Of a stretch of DNA of 32,364 nt, positions 5,200 through 16,216 are shown one piece after another (the first letter of the stretch is position 1; every line of letters starts with the position of its first letter). Source of the stretch: an uncultured Nitrospirota bacterium (lineage in GTDB: Bacteria; CG2-30-53-67); contig CAMYMF010000019.1 of assembly GCA_947259355.1 (NCBI GenBank), positions 43,975 to 76,338 on the forward strand, written 5' to 3'. The notes beneath the pieces are model-generated. The model made no database searches and was not told the DNA's origin. It was given only the letters and a program-made list of their open reading frames with translations. A program made the translations under genes and the position numbers.

Positions 5200-5579
5200 G
5201 CCGAATCATCGGAATCGGAATCGACATCGTCGAGATCGCACGCATCGAAAAGGTGTTTGCCAATTTCCCACTGCGCTTTCGGGATCGCGTCTTCACCGAG
5301 CAGGAGATCCGCCATGCCGAGGCCCGGCGGAATCGCTTCGAAGAATATGCGGCACGGTTTGCCGCCAAGGAAGCTGCCATGAAGGCCCTAGGAACGGGCT
5401 GGCGGCGAGGCATTGCCTTCACGGACATTGAGGTGGTCAACGAGGCTTCGGGCAAACCGAATCTTCTCTTCGCAGGCCGAGCGGCCGAGATTCTCCAGGA
5501 GCTGGGCGCAACAGCATCCTTTGTCTCACTGACCCATTCCGAATCGTACGCGGTGTCGCAGGTGATTCTAACGGGGTGA
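5196..5579 (+). CDS. acpS: Holo-[acyl-carrier-protein] synthase
   Basis: AcpS moves 4'-phosphopantetheine from coenzyme A to a serine of acyl carrier protein, activating it for fatty-acid synthesis. The length of 127 residues is typical. The motif GIGIDIVEI at 6-14 contains the Mg-binding Asp10. ARFAAKEAAMKALGTG at 53-68 contains Glu59, and SLTHSESYA lies near the C-terminus. It starts at GTG, overlapping the manC stop as GTGA. In many genomes acpS is followed by the NAD(P)HX repair gene nnr; here it instead meets a convergent gene, with a 12-base tail-to-tail overlap. Confidence 0.95.
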   Translation: MSRIIGIGIDIVEIARIEKVFANFPLRFRDRVFTEQEIRHAEARRNRFEEYAARFAAKEAAMKALGTGWRRGIAFTDIEVVNEASGKPNLLFAGRAAEILQELGATASFVSLTHSESYAVSQVILTG

Positions 5580-6944
5580 TTGCCCCTGCCCGGGGCATTC
5601 CGCTATAACCCGAGTGCGCTCGGCCCGGCCTGGAAGCCTTCCGTTCTGCTGTCTCACGAATTGAACCTTCCCACCGGACACTCTCGCGATGTAGGACGCG
5701 GGCAAAGGGGGCGGCTCCTGGATGATCAGCTCCGTCAGTGGCGTCTCGATGTAGTGTCGAATGGCGCGTTTCAGCGGCCGGGCTCCGTAGTCGGGGTCCA
5801 TACCGTTTCGCACCAGATAATCGACCACGCCCCGGGTGAAACGGATCCCGATTCGGGTGTCGGCCAGATTCCTGCGAACTGCCTGGAGCATCTGCCTCAC
5901 AATGTCCCGGCTGTGCCCCGGGCTCAGCGAGTTGAAACAAATGATATCATCCAGTCGGTTCAGAAACTCCGGGGAGAAGACCGTCCGCATCCCTTTGAGT
6001 GTCTCCCGTTGACGGACAGATGCATCGGGGGAGTCGGTCCGGCAAAATCCGACGGTTCCCTTCATTGCCTGAACCCGCTGGGTGCCGACATTGCTCGTGA
6101 GAATTACCACGGCCTGTCGAAAACAGATCCGTCGCTGGCGGTTGTCGCTGACATACCCTTCGTCCATAATCTGCAGCAGCAGGTTGTGCAGTTTCGTGTT
6201 CGCCTTTTCAATCTCATCGAAGAGGACCACATTCTCCGGATGTTTCGCCAAGGCATCGCCTAAGTTGCCGCCGTCCTCATAGCCGACGTACCCGGGCGGC
6301 GCCCCGATGAGCTTGGAGTACTCGTGGGGCTGGGAGAATTCGGAGCAGTCCACCCGTACCATATTCTTTTCGCTCCCCGTCAGAAGCTCGGCCAGCGCCT
6401 TGGCTAGCTCGGTCTTGCCCACACCCGTCTGGCCGGCGAAGAGAAAGCATCCGACAGGCCGTTGCGCGTCCCGGATGCCGAGGCGCGCACTCTGGACGGC
6501 CCGTGCGACTCTCGCCACAGCATCATCCTGGCCGATGACGCGCCGACGCAGGGCCTTTTCTATGCCGGCCGCCTCCCGGATCCGGCTGCGAAAGGCCTTG
6601 GGTTTCGCAAGCCGCATGGAGGCCGACTCGGCGGATGAATGGACGGGAATGCTGATGTTATAGATGTTCAGTGTCGGATTGACTTTGATGCACATGCGGT
6701 AGAGCTCTTCCACCACGTTCTCCTCGTCATAGCCACCATCCATATCCCCGTACCCCACGGCGAGATATTTCTCCCGGTATTCCGGGACTGCGGTGCTGAC
6801 GACGAATTCCTGATAGGCGCGCTTGTCCGGGATCTCCACACCCGAGAGTAACTGGTCGATTTCGTCTGGGGAGAACTCACGGATCTTGATAAAGCTGTCC
6901 AGAATGGGGCAGTACTTCAGTTTCATGTTGCTCTTCGGCTGCAT
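5568..6944 (-). CDS. Clp-like (ClpB/ClpX-type) AAA+ ATPase with novel N-terminus
   Basis: This is a single-ring AAA+ protein of 458 residues. Walker A GQTGVGKT is at 171-178, pore-loop GYVGYEDGG at 218-226, Walker B VVLFDEIEKA at 239-248, sensor-1 LTSNVG at 282-287 and sensor-2 GARPLKRAI at 387-395. This corresponds to the second AAA module of ClpA/ClpB with its C-terminal small domain. Residues 1-125 contain neither a Clp N domain nor a ClpX zinc finger; I do not recognise that part. It presumably unfolds or remodels substrates, with or without a protease. No IGF-type ClpP-docking loop is obvious. The start at 6944 is chosen because GGGAG lies nine bases upstream; the frame is open to 7118 but looks non-coding there. 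It is transcribed away from groESL, sharing its upstream region. Confidence 0.8.
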   Translation of the reverse strand: MQPKSNMKLKYCPILDSFIKIREFSPDEIDQLLSGVEIPDKRAYQEFVVSTAVPEYREKYLAVGYGDMDGGYDEENVVEELYRMCIKVNPTLNIYNISIPVHSSAESASMRLAKPKAFRSRIREAAGIEKALRRRVIGQDDAVARVARAVQSARLGIRDAQRPVGCFLFAGQTGVGKTELAKALAELLTGSEKNMVRVDCSEFSQPHEYSKLIGAPPGYVGYEDGGNLGDALAKHPENVVLFDEIEKANTKLHNLLLQIMDEGYVSDNRQRRICFRQAVVILTSNVGTQRVQAMKGTVGFCRTDSPDASVRQRETLKGMRTVFSPEFLNRLDDIICFNSLSPGHSRDIVRQMLQAVRRNLADTRIGIRFTRGVVDYLVRNGMDPDYGARPLKRAIRHYIETPLTELIIQEPPPLPASYIARVSGGKVQFVRQQNGRLPGRAERTRVIAECPGQGQSPR

Positions 6945-7132
6945 CGCTGAGAACTCCCGGTGAAAAGATGCTGCGTGCCGGTCGAGTGGCTTGAGCTTCT
7001 TATCGGCCCCGTGCCGGCAAACTTGAGGCGCCCACACACCGCGCCAGCATGGGGTCAGCGGCCCGTCGAGAAGCGCCGGTTGGGGCTTTGACGCTGTATG
7101 ACGTGCGCTGCCAACCAAGATCAGAAAAGACG

Positions 7133-9340: not shown

Positions 9341-9379
9341 AAAAAAGGAGTTGGTCATCCCAGACCAACTCCTTTTTTT
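9341..9379 (+). terminator. Bidirectional terminator after groEL
   Basis: GGAGTTGGTC (9347-9356) pairs perfectly with GACCAACTCC (9363-9372) around a 6-base loop. There are seven Ts after it and six As before it, so it can act on both strands. It would also end the minus-strand operon whose last gene stops at 9492. Confidence 0.95.
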
Positions 9380-9491: not shown

Positions 9492-10061
9492 TCAGGATAG
9501 AAAGGCGTCCCGCTCCTCGCCGCTCAGCGACACCACGTCGCCTGCCATGCCAACCCGAAAGGGTGGCAGGTCTGCCTCGGCTGTGTCGCCCAAAGGGGCC
9601 GAGGGGCGCTCGAGCGCAACCTTTTCAAGATGCAGAAAACGCTCATTCCCTGCGTCGAAACAGCGATAGCGGTACAGCAGCAGAGTAAAGGAGGAGGGGG
9701 CTGCCCTGATGAAACTCTTCACAAGCAGAGGGAACTCCGGGTAGATCAGGGCAGCCCCGGGGGGAGCTGATTCGTCCGTTTCAAAATCATCGAAGAGCCG
9801 TGGGAGGATCATGCGGTTGGCGCGAACCCACGCCAGCTGCGCGGCAGCCTTCAAAGGGGCCTGCCGATCCGGAGCGACATCAACCTGGATCAGCAGCAGC
9901 CTGCCGGAAGGATCCCGGCCGATTAAGTCGATCCGTGGACATTCATCGGTCTCCAGATAGCGGCCGATGATCTCGAAGGGCCCCTGGCCTGTCGCGCAAG
10001 CCGCCTCCAGGAGCTCCAACAGCTCTTTCTTATGGGTGAGCGCTACCGATTGGACAGACAT
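9492..10061 (-). CDS. Uncharacterised protein, degenerate PD-(D/E)XK-like domain
   Basis: The protein of 189 residues is not recognised with certainty. Residues 44-84 (IDLIGRDPSGRLLLIQVDV and the following helix with QLAWVRAN) resemble the core of PD-(D/E)XK nuclease-like proteins such as the NucS type, normally D...(E)xK. Here the triad reads Asp45, Gln59 and Asp61, so the usual acid and lysine are absent and catalysis is unlikely. No signal peptide or membrane segment is seen. The start at ATG 10061 leaves seven bases after the preceding stop; GTG 10076, which would overlap that gene, is the alternative. It is the last gene of the ParA-CBM operon. Confidence 0.6.
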   Translation of the reverse strand: MSVQSVALTHKKELLELLEAACATGQGPFEIIGRYLETDECPRIDLIGRDPSGRLLLIQVDVAPDRQAPLKAAAQLAWVRANRMILPRLFDDFETDESAPPGAALIYPEFPLLVKSFIRAAPSSFTLLLYRYRCFDAGNERFLHLEKVALERPSAPLGDTAEADLPPFRVGMAGDVVSLSGEERDAFLS

Positions 10062-10068
10062 GTTGGCC

Positions 10069-10950
10069 CTACGCACGCGCTGGCTCGGGGTCCTTCGCAG
10101 TGTAATCCCCGAGAACCAGGCCGCTGATGGTGAACAAGTGTTTACGGATGACGGAAGAGGGCCACTTCAACACGAGCGGCGCCGTCTCCTCCAGGGACGC
10201 CTTGATTTCCTGACCCTTGGGAAGGAAGGCGTAGCTGATCAATTCCCGTTGCAGAAAATGCCTGACGTTTCGGGCCATGCGGTGAAAAGCCTCCCGTGCC
10301 GCTGTCTCGCCTTCACCGGTATAGACGATCATCCCCAGGTCGGCCTCGGGACTGCGGCGGTGGAAGTCCTTGAAGGTCATGTACGTTTCCAGCATCCCGT
10401 CGGAATCTTCGGGAGCAATGGCGATGCAGAGGGAAATCCGCTTGACCAGCGGTCCCATCTCACGGAGGCGCCGATAGGGGAGGCTGAAGAGCATGAAATC
10501 GAACTGTCCATAGGCCTCAGGCCAGGCCGCCCCATGGCTGTCGCGGTTCAGACCCCCCTGTGAGGCCATGGCGTCCATGAACGCGGTCCGATGAATGAGG
10601 CGAACCCCCATGGGCCCTGTGAGCAGCGCGGGCCCGTCCTCACCCGGTGTCTGCACCTGTCCCATGAGCCGGGCGGTGTTCGGTTGACCGGCATCTTCAT
10701 CCACCACCAGAATGCGACACCCCTGGCGGGCCATTTCGATGGCGAGATTACACAGGACGAAAACCCCGATTCGGGAATCGTCCCCCCCGGCAATCCCGAT
10801 TGCGTGGGGGCGGGCGCATGACACATCCGCTTCGGGCTTGGCTGAAACCGTCTCAGCTTCCGGTGCGTCCTCCGTTATCGGCTCTGCTTCCGATGAGAGA
10901 AAGACATGGGAGATATCTTCCAGTCCCCTTCCCAGGCTCTTTCCCTTCAT
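10069..10950 (-). CDS. MinD/ParA-like protein lacking a P-loop
   Basis: The protein of 293 residues has the layout of a deviant-Walker ATPase (MinD, FlhG). After a short acidic linker comes AIGIAGGDDSRIGVFVLCNLA (from residue 50), where MinD has a GKGGVGKT P-loop. The lysines and the GKT/S are gone. The Walker A'-like strand RILVVDEDAGQPN (79-91) is kept, as is the later FDFMLFSLPYR strand where MinD carries IIDCP/APPG. It probably keeps the fold but not ATP hydrolysis. It starts with MKGKSLGRGLEDI, reminiscent of ParB-like starts, behind GAAGGAG. It sits between the ParA-CBM48 gene and the degenerate nuclease-like gene, so it may be a partner of the active ParA. Confidence 0.65.
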   Translation of the reverse strand: MKGKSLGRGLEDISHVFLSSEAEPITEDAPEAETVSAKPEADVSCARPHAIGIAGGDDSRIGVFVLCNLAIEMARQGCRILVVDEDAGQPNTARLMGQVQTPGEDGPALLTGPMGVRLIHRTAFMDAMASQGGLNRDSHGAAWPEAYGQFDFMLFSLPYRRLREMGPLVKRISLCIAIAPEDSDGMLETYMTFKDFHRRSPEADLGMIVYTGEGETAAREAFHRMARNVRHFLQRELISYAFLPKGQEIKASLEETAPLVLKWPSSVIRKHLFTISGLVLGDYTAKDPEPARA

Positions 10951-11058
10951 GGTGACTCCTTCGCAAGTCGATTCACAACGAGGGTACTGTCTCTCTCTAT
11001 GGTCCGGTTCGCGTGAGGGCACACTCGGCGCGAAGCTGCAACACCAGGTCCGACACCG

Positions 11059-12192
11059 CTAGGCATCGGGGCCTCTGTCAGACTCCTCGGTCTTCATGAG
11101 TTCCGGAAATTCGAACGGCGCGACTTCGATAACCGAGTCGATGCCCCCAAAATCATTGACCACGTTGCAGGGATTGGCTGGGTCGGCTTTCCAGGCCCCG
11201 TCCACAATGTACTTGTAGTGGTACTTCCCCGGGGGCAACGGCACCACCTTCTCCCAGCGGCCCGACTCCCCCTTGGCAAGCTCTGCACTCCTGTCGGGAG
11301 TCCAGTTGTTGAAATCCCCCACCAGCTTCAACGACTGGACGTCGGGCGCATCAAAGGAAAACAAGATCCCGTTGCGCACCGGCTTGGGCCCCTGCTTGTA
11401 GACCGGTCGATCCGCCACCGTCGGCGCCTCCAGGGCCGCCAGCTCTCGGGAAAGCGCAGTATAATCCCTATAGCCCGCGCAATACCTGTCAAAATCGGCA
11501 ATGGCCGTACCGTAACTGGCTGCCTCTTTGAGACGGACATTATAGTGAATCACGGTCTGCAGGGTTCGTTTGCCGAAATGCTTGCGCACCTCCTCCAGCA
11601 CTTCCCGGGCGATTCGCGTTCTGCGGTCGAACATGGTCACCAAAGTGCGGATCTCGATATGATGCCCCAGTTTCTCTGAAAAGAGCTGAATCGACTCAAT
11701 CTGCTTGCCCAATCCGTGGAGTGAAAAAAAGCTGGGCTCAACCGGAATGAGCGCATCCTGTGCTGCCCGGAGCGCGTTAAAAGAAAGAAGCCCCACCGAC
11801 GGCGGACAGTCGATGAGAATAAAGTCATACTGCTTCGGCATCCGTTCAATGGCCTGTAGCAGGCGGGATTCGCGACCGGGGCTTCCCGACAGCTTCTGCT
11901 CGAAGGCGGACAGGACAATGTTGGACGGTACCAGCGCAAGATGATCCGTGACCTTCACGGCGATATCTTCCAGGCGCGGGCCGTCCTGGTCCCCCGCAGC
12001 GAGGAGAACATCGTAGAGGCTCAGTTCCAGTTCCGTGGTTTTGAGATTGAGTCCGAGTGAGGTATGGGACTGGGGGTCCATGTCGATGAGGAGGACCTGC
12101 TTCTTCTGGTCGGCCAGACAGGCTGCCAGGTTGATGGCCGTGGTGGTCTTACCGCATCCGCCCTTCTGGTTGATGATTGCAATAGTTCTCAT
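11059..12192 (-). CDS. ParA ATPase fused to glycogen-binding CBM48 domain
   Basis: Residues 1-255 are a ParA/Soj ATPase: deviant Walker A INQKGGCGKTTTAINLA at 7-23 (signature Lys10, P-loop Lys15), LIDMDPQS at 35-42 and FILIDCPPSVG at 124-134. After a linker, residues 272-357 form an AMPK-beta-type glycogen-binding module (CBM48-like). Its parts are GDFNNWTP (Trp297), YHYKYIVDGAW (Lys327, Trp334), DPANP and GGIDSVIEV. The two tryptophans and the lysine occupy the sugar-contact positions of the AMPK beta module. ParA proteins partition or position cargo over the nucleoid; the CBM suggests the cargo is glycogen or another alpha-glucan (inference). It is the first gene of a three-gene operon with a sigma-70 promoter at 12389-12417. 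No ParB gene is nearby. Confidence 0.88.
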   Translation of the reverse strand: MRTIAIINQKGGCGKTTTAINLAACLADQKKQVLLIDMDPQSHTSLGLNLKTTELELSLYDVLLAAGDQDGPRLEDIAVKVTDHLALVPSNIVLSAFEQKLSGSPGRESRLLQAIERMPKQYDFILIDCPPSVGLLSFNALRAAQDALIPVEPSFFSLHGLGKQIESIQLFSEKLGHHIEIRTLVTMFDRRTRIAREVLEEVRKHFGKRTLQTVIHYNVRLKEAASYGTAIADFDRYCAGYRDYTALSRELAALEAPTVADRPVYKQGPKPVRNGILFSFDAPDVQSLKLVGDFNNWTPDRSAELAKGESGRWEKVVPLPPGKYHYKYIVDGAWKADPANPCNVVNDFGGIDSVIEVAPFEFPELMKTEESDRGPDA

Positions 12193-12388
12193 AAACTGCT
12201 CCTTTCAAGTTCACAGGCCCCTTAACTGGACACTGCACTGTGTTGCTTGACGTTGATGAGCAGAATGTAGAACGCCGGCGGGACCGGTTGTCTCACCCCC
12301 TTTCACCCTCGATGCACCTGTTGACGTTTTGGAATAGGCCATTTATTTTGTGTCGGCAGGATGTGGATATACTACATATTGTGTAGGC

Positions 12389-12417
12389 AAGATAATCGAT
12401 ATCAAATCAAATGTCAA
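12389..12417 (-). promoter_or_regulatory. Sigma-70 promoter of ParA-CBM48 operon
   Basis: On the minus strand a perfect TTGACA (12412-12417) and TATCTT (12389-12394) lie 17 bases apart. The predicted start near 12382 leaves a leader of about 190 bases before the ATG. The flanking 12193-12546 gap has no gene; an inverted CTACA/TGTAG pair lies near the start site. Confidence 0.75.
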
Positions 12418-12546: not shown

Positions 12547-13911
12547 TTAGATGCCGTATTTTTCTATCTTGTACCGGAGGATCTTTCGGGTGATCTGAAG
12601 CAGCTCGGCCGCGCGCGTCTGCACACCCTTGGCCTGAATCAGGGCCTTCTTCAGATAGGCCTTCTCCATCTCTTCCACGACATCCGTGAGGGAGACCCCC
12701 TCCGGCGGGATGCTAACGTCATCCACCCCGAAAGAGGGGCCCGGCGATGTGTCGGGCAGTGAAAAAGACCGGGGGGTCAGGATGTCGGAGCGACTCAACA
12801 CAACCGCTCGCTCGATCAGGTTCTGCAGCTCGCGAACATTGCCCGGGAAGTCGTAGTGCACTAGAGCATCCATGGTCTCGGGCGTCACCGTCTTCGGTTT
12901 CTGGTGCGTCTCTTCCGCGTACTTGTTGACAAAGTAGTGCACAAGCGCCGGAATGTCGTCGCGACGCTGACGAAGGGGGGGCACTTCAACGGGTACCACA
13001 TTGATCCGGTAGTAGAGATCCTCCCGGAATGTCCCCTCCTCTACTTTCTTCTCCAGGTCGGTGTTGGTCGCCGTGATTAATCGGACATCCACCTGGATGG
13101 TGCGGGTGCCACCGAGATGCTCGAATTCTCCACTCTGCAGGACCCGCAACAGCTTGACTTGAAGGGCGCTCTCCATATCGCCGATCTCGTCAAGAAAGAG
13201 GGTGCCACCGTTGGCCATTTCGAACCGGCCCGGCTTCTGCCGATGCGCCCCGGTGAACGCGCCTTTCTCGTAGCCGAAAAGCTCCGACTCCAGCAGCGTG
13301 CCTGGAATGGCGCCGCAGTTGAGTTTGATGAATGGCGCAGAGGCACGGTCGCTGTGATAATGGACGGCCCCGGCGATCAGCTCCTTTCCGGTCCCGCTTT
13401 CGCCGCGGATCAGCACACTGCTCTTGGTCGGCGCAATCCGGCTGATGAGGTTAAAGATCTTCTGCATGGACGCACTGCGGCCGATGATGTTGTCGAACTG
13501 ATACCGGGAGTGAAGTTCAGAGCGGAGCTGTTCGTTTTCCCTGGCCAGCTGGCGGTAGCGCAGCGCCTTCTTGACGATGGCCTCCATCTCGGTGATATCA
13601 AAGGGTTTGAGGATATAGTCAAAGGCCCCGGTCTTCATGGCATCCACCGCGGTCTGCACGGTCCCGTAGGCGGTCATGATGATCACCGGGATCTCCTCAT
13701 CGAGCGCTTTGACCTCCTGCAGGACCTCCATTCCCGACATGCCGGGCATCTTCATGTCGGTGATGACCAGCCCCGGCAGACGGCTCCTAGCAAGCTCGAG
13801 GCCCTCCAGGCCGGTGCTCGCAGTGAGGACACGGCAGCCAATCCCCTCCAGGGAGAGCTGCAGAATCCGGTGCATTTTCTCTTCATCGTCGATGACCAAC
13901 ACCTGTTCCAA
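12547..13911 (-). CDS. NtrC-family sigma-54 response regulator
   Basis: The protein of 454 residues is a three-domain transcription activator. The receiver spans residues 1-120, with the phospho-acceptor Asp52 (VITDMKMPG) and the LKPF lysine at 102. The AAA+ domain spans about 140-370, with Walker A GESGTGKE at 170-177, the sigma-54-contact loop GAFTGA at 217-222 and Walker [11 protein letters not shown]. The Fis-type helix-turn-helix is at the C-terminus ([18 protein letters not shown]). When phosphorylated it should remodel sigma-54 RNA polymerase at enhancer-dependent promoters. The start is TTG 13911, supported by AGAGGTG upstream and a standard receiver beginning. It lies 217 bases downstream of its likely partner kinase. 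It does not resemble PrsR closely. Confidence 0.93.
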
Positions 13912-13937
13912 CAGAACACCTCTTTTCTAGGTTCTTT

Positions 13938-14058
13938 ACAGAGCGACAGAACTTTGCATACCTTTATTGCTTCCTCGCCTCGTCGCTGCGGAGTGTGAGA
14001 TGTACACCTTGCTCCTCGACTTCGTCGCGCCTCGGTCTGCTTTGTTCTGTCGCTCTGT
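13938..14058. repeat. 121-bp palindromic (MITE-like) element
   Basis: Perfect 15-bp inverted repeats ACAGAGCGACAGAAC (13938-13952) and GTTCTGTCGCTCTGT (14044-14058) bound the element. Inside are two imperfect direct repeats of the type GCT-CCTCG-TCGTCGC. It has no coding capacity and sits between the kinase and regulator genes. It could be a small non-autonomous mobile element, or form a large hairpin in the message. Only one copy is in this window. Confidence 0.65.
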
Positions 14059-14128
14059 ATGCGCAACTATTTCTGTCACCATGTCCCTGAGTAAAAACTC
14101 CGCCTGTCTGCCGGTGACGGCTACTCCC

Positions 14129-16216
14129 TCATGACCCCGCGACGGTATTCGGCAGGACACCTTCGAACTTCTCCGCTGCGGGAATCCGGATCGTAAACTG
14201 CGCCCCCTGCCCCTCCTGGCTGACGAGAAAGATCTTGCCGTGATGATTCTCCACAATCTTGCTCACCACCGAGAGACCGAGACCCGTTCCCTGCTTTTTC
14301 GGTATCCCCATCCCCGTGTCTGAGAAGACAATTGCGACCTGTCCCTCGCCGGGCAGATAACGGCTGGTGATCTCGATGCGATCCCCGTCTTCCGTAGACT
14401 GCAGGGCATTGAGCAGCAGATTCAAAAACATCTCATGCAACTGGTGCTCATCGGCCATGACCTCGGGCAGATTGGCATCCAGCTGCGTGTGCACAGCAAT
14501 TTTCTGCTGTTCGATCTGCAGTGAGGCCATCTGGAGCGTACCCTGAATCAGGTCGTTGATGTTGTGGCGTTTGAACTGCGGCGGTTTGGGGCGGGCGAAC
14601 TCCAGGAAATCGGTGATGACATCGTTGAGGCGGTCGACCTCTTCCGAGATGACCCCGGAGAGCTCCTCCAGACGCGGGTTGCCGTGATCCGATTCCTTGC
14701 GGAGAATTCCGGCCGCCCCCTTGATGATCCCCAGGGGGTTTCGAATTTCATGGGCGATGCCCGCAGACAGCTCGCCCAGAGCGGCCAGTCGGTCCTGTCG
14801 CCGGATATGCTCTTTCAACGCCTGGATCTCAGTCAGGTCCCGCAACAGGATGACCAGACCGGTTCCCGAACCATTCGGATGCATGGGGTCTTCCAGGATG
14901 GAGAGACTCAGCTCGACAGGCACCGTCGATCCGTCACTGCGGTGCATAACGGTTTCGATGGCTTCCAGCCGTCGATGGTGCTGCATGGCATCCTGAATGA
15001 GACGCAACAGCTCGCTGTCCTGGGCGAGCACCTCGGAAATCTCCCGGCCGAGCAGCGCCTCGGCCGAAGACTCTAGGATGTTCTCAGCCGTGCGATTGAC
15101 CTGCATGATTCTGAACGCAGGGTCTATGGTGATCACCCCATTGATGAGACTGCGCAGAATGTTCTCCATATAGTTCTGGTTCTCCACGAGTTGGGCCACC
15201 GTCTCTTGAAGCCGATCGGTCATCAGGTTGAAGGACTCGGCCAGCTCCCCGATCTCGTCGCGGCTGCGGATATGGATCTTCTGGCTGTAGTCGCCCGCAC
15301 TGATGGCCCGCACCCCCTCGGAGAAGCGCAGAATAGGCCAGGAGATCCCCGTGGCCACCGCGGAGCCCACCACCACGGAGAGCAGCAGGCCCAGCACAAT
15401 CAGAATATAGTAGAAGCGGGCCGAGGCGAGCTTCCCGCTCAGGGTTTCCGATGTCGGTATTCCGTTGGCCAGAATGAAGGAGACCCGTCCCGCCGCGTCG
15501 GGCAACGGTGTCAGCAGAGCATTGTACTCGAAAAGCTCTTCGCCTCGCACAATGGCGGCGCTCTTTGTGAAAGTCTGATGGCTCTGGGTCACGACCTTCT
15601 TGAACACCGTATCAGTCAGCTCGAGTTTTCCTTCCGTCCCGATGGAGAGATACGCGCCTGCCGCGTCCTGTCGGAACAGAATCGACTCCACACCGGTGAC
15701 ATTCTGAAGATCGCTCAGAAACTCGTGGTTGAGGCTGTAGCCGGTCATGATTGTTCCAATGGGCCGATCCTGATCGGTTACGGGCAGGACATAGACCAGC
15801 AGGGGCCAAAGATCGTAGGCCCCGTCGGTTCGAAGCAGCGTCATCCCCTGCACCGGGCTCCCGGGTCGCTCCACCTTGGTGCCCGTGTTGGAGAAGATCG
15901 TGCCGCCCTCATTGTCAAAGAGAAAGACCTTCAGCGGCGTGTCGAACCAGAGGAACTTGATGTTCACGCCCCCCTGCATGGCCTGCCTGAGACGCGCGTC
16001 ACCCGACATGGAGCGTGCGACACCCTCCAGTTCGGTCTTTTTCCGTGCCAAGAGATAGACCGCGGACTTGCCGGCATAATTGATCCGCTCTTCGATACCT
16101 TTGCCGAGCCTTACGGAGGCAATCTTCACCCCGACGTAGGTCGCGATCAGCATGGGAATGACGCCGACCAGGATGAATGCAACAATCAATTTTCGGCGGA
16201 TGGGGAAACGACTCAT
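14129..16216 (-). CDS. Membrane sensor histidine kinase (Cache-like/HAMP/PAS)
   Basis: The protein of 695 residues has a first membrane helix at about 9-31, a periplasmic sensor of about 235 residues with Cache-like character, and a second membrane helix at about 268-291. A HAMP linker follows (about 291-343), then a PAS domain (about 350-465). The HisKA motif AGIAHEIRNPLG places the phospho-His at 489. The ATPase domain has NLLLNALQ, DTGMGIP and GTGLGLS boxes. It should autophosphorylate in response to an extracytoplasmic signal and pass phosphate to the NtrC-type regulator directly downstream. The ligand is unknown. No strong ribosome site precedes the ATG. A good promoter lies 47-75 bases upstream. 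Confidence 0.92.
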   Translation of the reverse strand: MSRFPIRRKLIVAFILVGVIPMLIATYVGVKIASVRLGKGIEERINYAGKSAVYLLARKKTELEGVARSMSGDARLRQAMQGGVNIKFLWFDTPLKVFLFDNEGGTIFSNTGTKVERPGSPVQGMTLLRTDGAYDLWPLLVYVLPVTDQDRPIGTIMTGYSLNHEFLSDLQNVTGVESILFRQDAAGAYLSIGTEGKLELTDTVFKKVVTQSHQTFTKSAAIVRGEELFEYNALLTPLPDAAGRVSFILANGIPTSETLSGKLASARFYYILIVLGLLLSVVVGSAVATGISWPILRFSEGVRAISAGDYSQKIHIRSRDEIGELAESFNLMTDRLQETVAQLVENQNYMENILRSLINGVITIDPAFRIMQVNRTAENILESSAEALLGREISEVLAQDSELLRLIQDAMQHHRRLEAIETVMHRSDGSTVPVELSLSILEDPMHPNGSGTGLVILLRDLTEIQALKEHIRRQDRLAALGELSAGIAHEIRNPLGIIKGAAGILRKESDHGNPRLEELSGVISEEVDRLNDVITDFLEFARPKPPQFKRHNINDLIQGTLQMASLQIEQQKIAVHTQLDANLPEVMADEHQLHEMFLNLLLNALQSTEDGDRIEITSRYLPGEGQVAIVFSDTGMGIPKKQGTGLGLSVVSKIVENHHGKIFLVSQEGQGAQFTIRIPAAEKFEGVLPNTVAGS

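Follow-up and report, generated by a model that had tools for sequence, protein, structure and literature searches.

A ParA-type ATPase carrying an AMPK-type carbohydrate-binding module and encoded with a candidate ParB-type activator: a probable undescribed branch of the ParA patterning systems

The question raised by the locus described here is what a ParA-type ATPase with a glycogen-binding type of carbohydrate-binding module (CBM) may be patterning or sensing, and whether its ligand is glycogen. The locus lies in a stretch of 32,364 nucleotides from an uncultured Nitrospirota bacterium (CG2-30-53-67; assembly GCA_947259355.1, contig CAMYMF010000019.1, positions 43,975-76,338 of the forward strand), the whole of which is called the window below. 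Three co-directional genes on the reverse strand (9492-12192) encode a ParA-CBM fusion, a partner with a MinD fold and a PD-(D/E)XK-like protein, respectively. The set is taken here, with moderate confidence, as an undescribed branch of the ParA-type patterning systems, in which the ATPase itself would bear the CBM and the partner would act as a ParB-type activator. This reading was preferred because of the synteny of the three genes, their recurrence across phyla, the enrichment of a short motif at the start of the partner, the register of that motif with ParB, the changing protein bodies behind it and the retention of the ParB-binding cleft on the ATPase.

The ParA-CBM fusion has 377 residues (11059-12192, reverse strand) and is composed of a ParA ATPase domain (residues 1-255; 11428-12192), with the deviant Walker A sequence NQKGGCGKTTT, K10, K15 and Arg191, and an AMPK-type (AMP-activated protein kinase) CBM48 domain (residues ~270-358; 11119-11385), with W297, K327, W334 and D352. 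Both parts were matched by Pfam over the cut-off (AAA_31 at 1.1e-50 and AMPK1_CBM at 2e-12), the latter (PF16561) with a score of 47.6 bits against a curated cut-off of 26.8, and this AMPK1_CBM domain was the sole one found in the genome. The closest solved relatives of the protein are Soj/ParA (8ray, 5.9e-52). Homologues were collected by a GTDB genome scan with the patterns [IV][VIA]NQKGGC and G[DS]FN[NG]W[TE]P, by which more than 500 relatives were returned; the best 80, together with six others, were analysed as a set of 86, and 85 of them are full ParA-CBM fusions. K10 and K15 of the KGGxGKT signature, the Walker B aspartate (D128) and Arg191 of the DNA-binding region were each found in 86/86 homologues. 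The glucan-contact positions, which we take to be W100, K126, W133 and N150 of AMPK, read W, K, W and D in the window; across the 86 homologues the two tryptophans were each found in 85, although Cys13 and W297 were partly selected for by the scan patterns and W334 was not part of them, while the second position was Lys in 27, Arg in 47 and Gln in 11, and the fourth Asn in 54 and Asp in 31. The intact ATPase motifs and the residues Trp297, Lys327 and Trp334, which an earlier note on this DNA had read from the letters, were both borne out. When a quick tree was built with 15 plain ParAs, including the genome's own, all 86 homologues fell on one side of a branch with a support of 95 (SH-aLRT, approximate likelihood ratio test), as a clade apart from plain ParA, with some long branches and an unsure placement of the window's own family. 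At one locus of the same clade (L100:7992-9897), ParA lacks the CBM, by loss or from the start, and an LGRGL partner is kept, which makes it a useful natural control. Stand-alone AMPK1_CBM-type proteins of ~120-160 residues, closely similar to the CBM of ParA-CBM, are encoded ~2.5 kb upstream of ParA-CBM at two others (L058:5345-5824 and L067:3550-3909).

The partner has 293 residues (10069-10950, reverse strand); its true start is the ATG at 10950 behind the ribosome site AAGGAG, and the listed open reading frame (ORF) of 317 residues has an over-long start. A CbiA match below the threshold was given by Pfam and a match to FlhG (1.2e-7) by PDB sequence search, and the best PDB matches of its AlphaFold model (predicted local distance difference test, pLDDT, 85) were FlhG/FleN/MinD (1.1e-15). 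The P-loop site reads GGDDSRIGVF, in agreement with the earlier description of a MinD-like protein lacking a P-loop, and since GKS/GKT is kept in 6 of the 26 aligned homologues and lost in the others, the partner is read as a decayed ATPase. No ParB/Srx CTPase domain or helix-turn-helix (HTH) was matched in it by Pfam or NCBIfam. Compared with FlhG/FleN, the MinD-like fold is present, and neither an N-terminal DQAxxLR nor an intact P-loop was found, the N-terminal motif being LGRGLEDIS instead.

It is this N-terminus, MKGKSLGRGLEDISHVFLS (10894-10950, reverse strand), that stands in register with the N-termini LG[RK]GL-x-AL of the ParBs encoded beside plain ParAs; the genome's own ParB starts with MSRKALGKGLSALI. 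In a position-specific scoring matrix made from ParB N-termini the partners were not at the very top, and because the following ALI residues of ParB dominate such a matrix, a census of the core motif was used instead. In the translated surroundings of the 86 loci (1.18 million residues), LG[RK]G[LMIF] occurred 30 times, and 20 of these occurrences, one per locus, were within 400 nt past the stop of ParA-CBM. The consensus of the partners is LGRGL-x-[DE]-[IV]-SH-x-F-[LF]-S, and variants occupy the same place in Myxococcota (LPRDLxDVLHYFLPE), Planctomycetota (RRGIxSIAHLFLS) and Eiseniibacteriota (SPKTLADVSHLFFS). In most lineages the motif stands in front of a MinD-like body. Rokuibacteriota, like one Acidobacteria metagenome-assembled genome (MAG), have it joined straight to the third-protein domain; in Desulfobacterales it stands on a Cys-rich domain, and in Planctomycetota it is combined with the MinD-like and third-protein domains in a single ORF. 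As the motif stays while the bodies behind it change, it was taken as the constant element and genes 2 and 3 as linked; such constancy suggests a piece that touches ParA. In four of the Desulfobacterales partners (L057, L059, L063 and L077) the Cys-rich domain shows a CxxC...C arrangement, which may give the candidate activator a metal site. Elsewhere in the genome of the window, a second plain ParA (L144:1098-2829, G000:C12) is followed by a protein that starts with MSDKEEELRKQAKRRLNPKGWEALLEG, a short positively charged N-terminus, and the two are possibly another ParA/activator pair.

The partners of ParA proteins are usually encoded right downstream of parA, and several of them stimulate ParA through a charged N-terminus (PMC8262871). 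In M. xanthus the ParB peptide lies in a cleft with L150, G151 and L152 of ParA, and Arg13 of ParB acts near Y81, E82, D110 and E117 of ParA (PMC12462528). When these residues were mapped onto ParA-CBM via the 8ray alignment, the cleft was found to be kept as V133, G134 and L135 (the glycine in 84/86), Y81 corresponded to Tyr60 (Tyr in 75/86) and Asp61 was present. By alignment, therefore, the docking surface is kept in ParA-CBM and the charge cluster partly kept. By analogy with ParB (PMC12462528), the motif of the partner is probably an ATPase-activating peptide for ParA-CBM, and activation of another SIMIBI nucleoside triphosphatase (NTPase) through an N-terminal helix is on record for FlhG (PMC12826062). 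The string LGRGL was not found in papers together with ParB. Because the ParB/Srx and HTH domains are absent and a MinD fold takes their place, the partner is not a ParB and may act like one on ParA; the earlier statement that there is no ParB holds for the genes of the operon and had overlooked the ParB-type ParA-binding motif at the start of gene 2.

The third protein has 189 residues (9492-10061, reverse strand), and its gene starts 7 nt past the end of the partner gene. No Pfam hit was obtained for it, nor any match of note by PDB sequence search; its AlphaFold model (pLDDT 89) gave a weak match to EndoMS/NucS (2.5e-4, template modelling score 0.39). All 29 of its homologues lack the ExK catalytic pair, in agreement with the nuclease-like fold without catalytic residues described before, and the protein is, judging from the predicted fold, a probable pseudo-nuclease.

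The co-conservation of the three genes, one of the points on which the earlier note had let its proposal stand or fall, was found. The genes are together in every family relative with an unbroken contig (G002-G005; the contig of G001 ends inside ParA), with groESL, a sensor histidine kinase and NtrC-type regulator pair (12547-16216, directly upstream throughout the family) and an RNase E/G-type gene as neighbours; the same three genes are together in a second family (G006), where the flanks differ and the kinase/regulator pair is not found. Desulfuromonadales, proposed as the lineage, was not supported; the set recurs across at least ten phyla, and the 86 homologues came from Omnitrophota, Planctomycetota, Myxococcota, Desulfobacterota, Eiseniibacteriota, Rokuibacteriota, Latescibacterota, Zixiibacteriota, Krumholzibacteriota, Acidobacteriota and others. 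In 37 of the 40 loci from phyla other than Omnitrophota and Planctomycetota, ParA-CBM is followed immediately by the partner or its motif; of the three exceptions, two are short of contig and one (L105) groups on the tree with Omnitrophota. A distinct cassette was seen in seven Omnitrophota loci (L086, L093, L104, L107, L114, L116 and L128), in which a glycoside hydrolase family 57 (GH57) gene, a gene for a ~200-residue protein with a single transmembrane segment and a beta-rich C-terminal part, ParA-CBM, a DUF4870-like membrane protein gene and a gene for a Lys-rich EF-Tu-domain-2-like protein follow each other; no ParB-like partner was seen adjoining ParA-CBM in this cassette, and alginate-export-like porins (PF13372) are encoded further upstream in many such cassettes.

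Under the patterning reading, and by analogy with known ParA proteins, ATP-bound ParA-CBM dimers would sit on the nucleoid, and the N-terminal peptide of the partner would dock in the ParB cleft of ParA, so that ATP is hydrolysed and ParA-CBM is let go. The link to a cargo or to a signalling complex would be made by the partner body together with the third protein, and the CBM would either tie ParA to a polysaccharide or make the cycle depend on a glycan ligand. A complex would in this way be spaced, positioned or inherited, or a switch tied to carbon stores would result. Several points weigh against this reading. Of 32 Omnitrophota loci, 30 have no recognisable partner adjoining ParA-CBM, and neither have most of the Planctomycetota loci, so that the partner is not essential to ParA-CBM everywhere, and among the MinD/ParA-like hits elsewhere in Omnitrophota genomes the motif was found only in ordinary ParBs. 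The ParA of L100 has a partner and no CBM. The acidic cluster that receives Arg13 of ParB is only partly kept, with D110 and E117 replaced by V93 and K100 in the window, respectively. Finally, the activator role could hold while the output is regulation and not positioning.

For the question of glycogen, GlgA and GH57 were both found in all 8 genomes (8 species) by which the phylum is represented. GH57 or GH13 genes are beside ParA-CBM in about ten loci. Seven Omnitrophota loci have a GH57 gene ~2 kb upstream in the same orientation; being related by descent, they count as fewer than seven independent events. In two others, GH13 enzymes with a CBM are encoded 5-7 kb upstream; no glycogen genes were found adjoining the operon in the window's own family. 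GH13-type enzymes with a signal-like N-terminus and an N-terminal CBM of the kind seen in ParA-CBM were noted upstream of ParA-CBM in L060:1-2532 and L066:2572-5025. Among 39 ParA-CBM genomes searched, all of them MAGs of uncertain completeness, the glycosyltransferase family 5 (GT5) glycogen synthase was absent from seven of the Myxococcota branch (GT4-type synthases were not searched), and five of these seven had no GH13 and either no GH57 or weak partial matches to it. These five keep the full set and both binding tryptophans, and the set is thus not found only with alpha-glucan metabolism. Conversely, one genome (G007) has GlgA and no ParA-CBM. Because these Myxococcota genomes keep the system without GT5, GH13 or a convincing GH57, glycogen as the general ligand is excluded on present evidence; it is possible in the lineage of the window, and glycogen fits the window organism (GlgA, GH57) and some Omnitrophota.

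Of the other explanations, the one that survives best, while itself unlikely, is that the CBM48 is a protein-protein or structural module without any carbohydrate, in a set that positions an unrelated complex. The Myxococcota without glycogen enzymes, the variation at the Lys126 and Asn150 positions and the partner kept in L100 without a CBM are all in line with it. It does not readily account for both sugar-platform tryptophans in 85/86, W334 being independent of the search patterns, or for the alpha-glucan enzymes that adjoin ParA-CBM.

A glycan-sensing regulator, in which the CBM would read an alpha-glucan or another saccharide and gate the ParA cycle while the partner and the third protein relay the signal and nothing is moved, is rather less likely still. 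Models for it exist, as the CBM of AMPK beta gates the kinase, FleN signals to FleQ and FlhG to FlhF. FlhG/FleN are the nearest folds to that of the partner, the action of FlhG on an NTPase is of the same kind, the kinase/regulator pair is upstream throughout the window's family and the third protein has a predicted fold like that of a DNA enzyme, without the catalytic residues; that pair, however, is not beside the operon in the second family, the conserved set includes no transcription factor, and the invariant DNA-binding residue of ParA suits nucleoid patterning too.

It is quite improbable, though slightly less so than the glycogen-specific version that follows, that polysaccharide bodies (glycogen or, in other lineages, another glycan) are tethered to or spaced on the nucleoid by the CBM-bearing ParA and inherited in all these phyla, with turnover by a ParB-type peptide on a MinD-like pseudo-ATPase. 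The positioning and sharing of glycogen granules, as first proposed from the letters, with the CBM binding glycogen and ParA-CBM and the partner spacing granules along the nucleoid, is doubtful. The over-threshold AMPK1_CBM match with its two tryptophans, the glycogen enzymes of the phylum and the neighbouring GH57 and GH13 genes speak for it; the Myxococcota genomes, G007, the Asp at the Asn150 equivalent of the window and the mostly Arg at the Lys126 equivalent family-wide speak against it. In ParABS and McdAB, moreover, the cargo is carried by the partner and not by the ATPase, and since it is unusual beside these systems for ParA to bear a glycan module, claims on the cargo call for caution. 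That the set moves glycogen everywhere is unlikely; what stands of the proposal that it places granules or reports carbon stores is an unusually composed, non-chromosomal ParA-type set for positioning or regulation, and what falls is glycogen as the general ligand.

An auxiliary chromosome or plasmid partition ParA, as the nearest solved relatives (Soj/ParA) might suggest, is very improbable, since the genome has its own parAB beside an rsmG-type gene, ParA-CBM forms a separate clade and neither a ParB/Srx nor an HTH domain was matched in the partner. A phage or defence origin was rejected, only generic ParA matches and one weak candidate-system match (third protein) having been given by PHROGs and PADLOC.

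Set beside known systems, the operon resembles ParABS (Soj/Spo0J) in its ParA domain and in a downstream partner with an LG[RK]GL N-terminus in ParB register, and differs from it in the CBM48 on ParA, the MinD-like partner body in place of the ParB CTPase/HTH and the extra protein, a probable pseudo-nuclease. With the FlhF-FlhG switch it shares a MinD-fold partner, FlhG being the nearest solved fold, whose N-terminal extension is proposed to activate a SIMIBI NTPase, whereas the target here would be ParA and not FlhF, the motif is LGRGL and not DQAxxLR, and the P-loop is lost in most lineages. Like McdAB carboxysome positioning and PomXYZ, which are ParA systems for cargo other than DNA with an activator of charged N-terminus (PMC8262871, PMC13170346), it may serve such a cargo; unlike in these, the partner is unrelated in sequence, the CBM is on the ATPase and no carboxysome or division genes are nearby. 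The CBM agrees with the glycogen-binding domain of the AMPK beta subunit in the W100 and W133 equivalents, and differs in its place at the C-terminus of ParA and in having Lys or Arg at the K126 and Asn or Asp at the N150 position. The third protein weakly resembles the EndoMS/NucS PD-(D/E)XK nucleases in its predicted fold and differs from them in the missing ExK residues.

As for the flanks, a sigma-70-like promoter (TTGACA-N17-TATCTT; 12389-12417, reverse strand; 10 of 12 matches, to the consensus only) lies upstream of the operon, and its start coincides with the endpoint 12417 of the earlier note. Between the operon and the convergent groEL, the A/T-flanked inverted repeat AAGGAGTTGGTC-TGGGAT-GACCAACTCCTT (9341-9379), read from the letters and absent from the list of the element scan, is a probable bidirectional terminator. 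An AAA+ protein, ClpA/B-C-terminal-like by eye, is encoded at 5568-7118 opposite acpS and is also retained near the operons of relatives.

What ParA/MinD ATPases place ranges from chromosomes and plasmids to carboxysomes, flagella and division sites; to our knowledge most orphan ParAs have no known cargo. Patterning by ParA/MinD is a known kind, and the ParA-CBM architecture with its partner is what is new here: in the open-access literature nothing relevant was found on ParA with AMPK1_CBM, ParA with the isoamylase early set domain, or ParA-like ATPases with glycogen granules, in keeping with the earlier statement that no system of this make-up is described. The ParA-CBM family is widespread and coherent, as one clade with a dedicated partner. 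If the patterning reading is true, the activation peptide of ParB would extend to a non-ParB body, a MinD-like ATPase would be seen on its way from enzyme to scaffold of that peptide, and it would be the motor of a patterning system that bears the carbohydrate-binding module.

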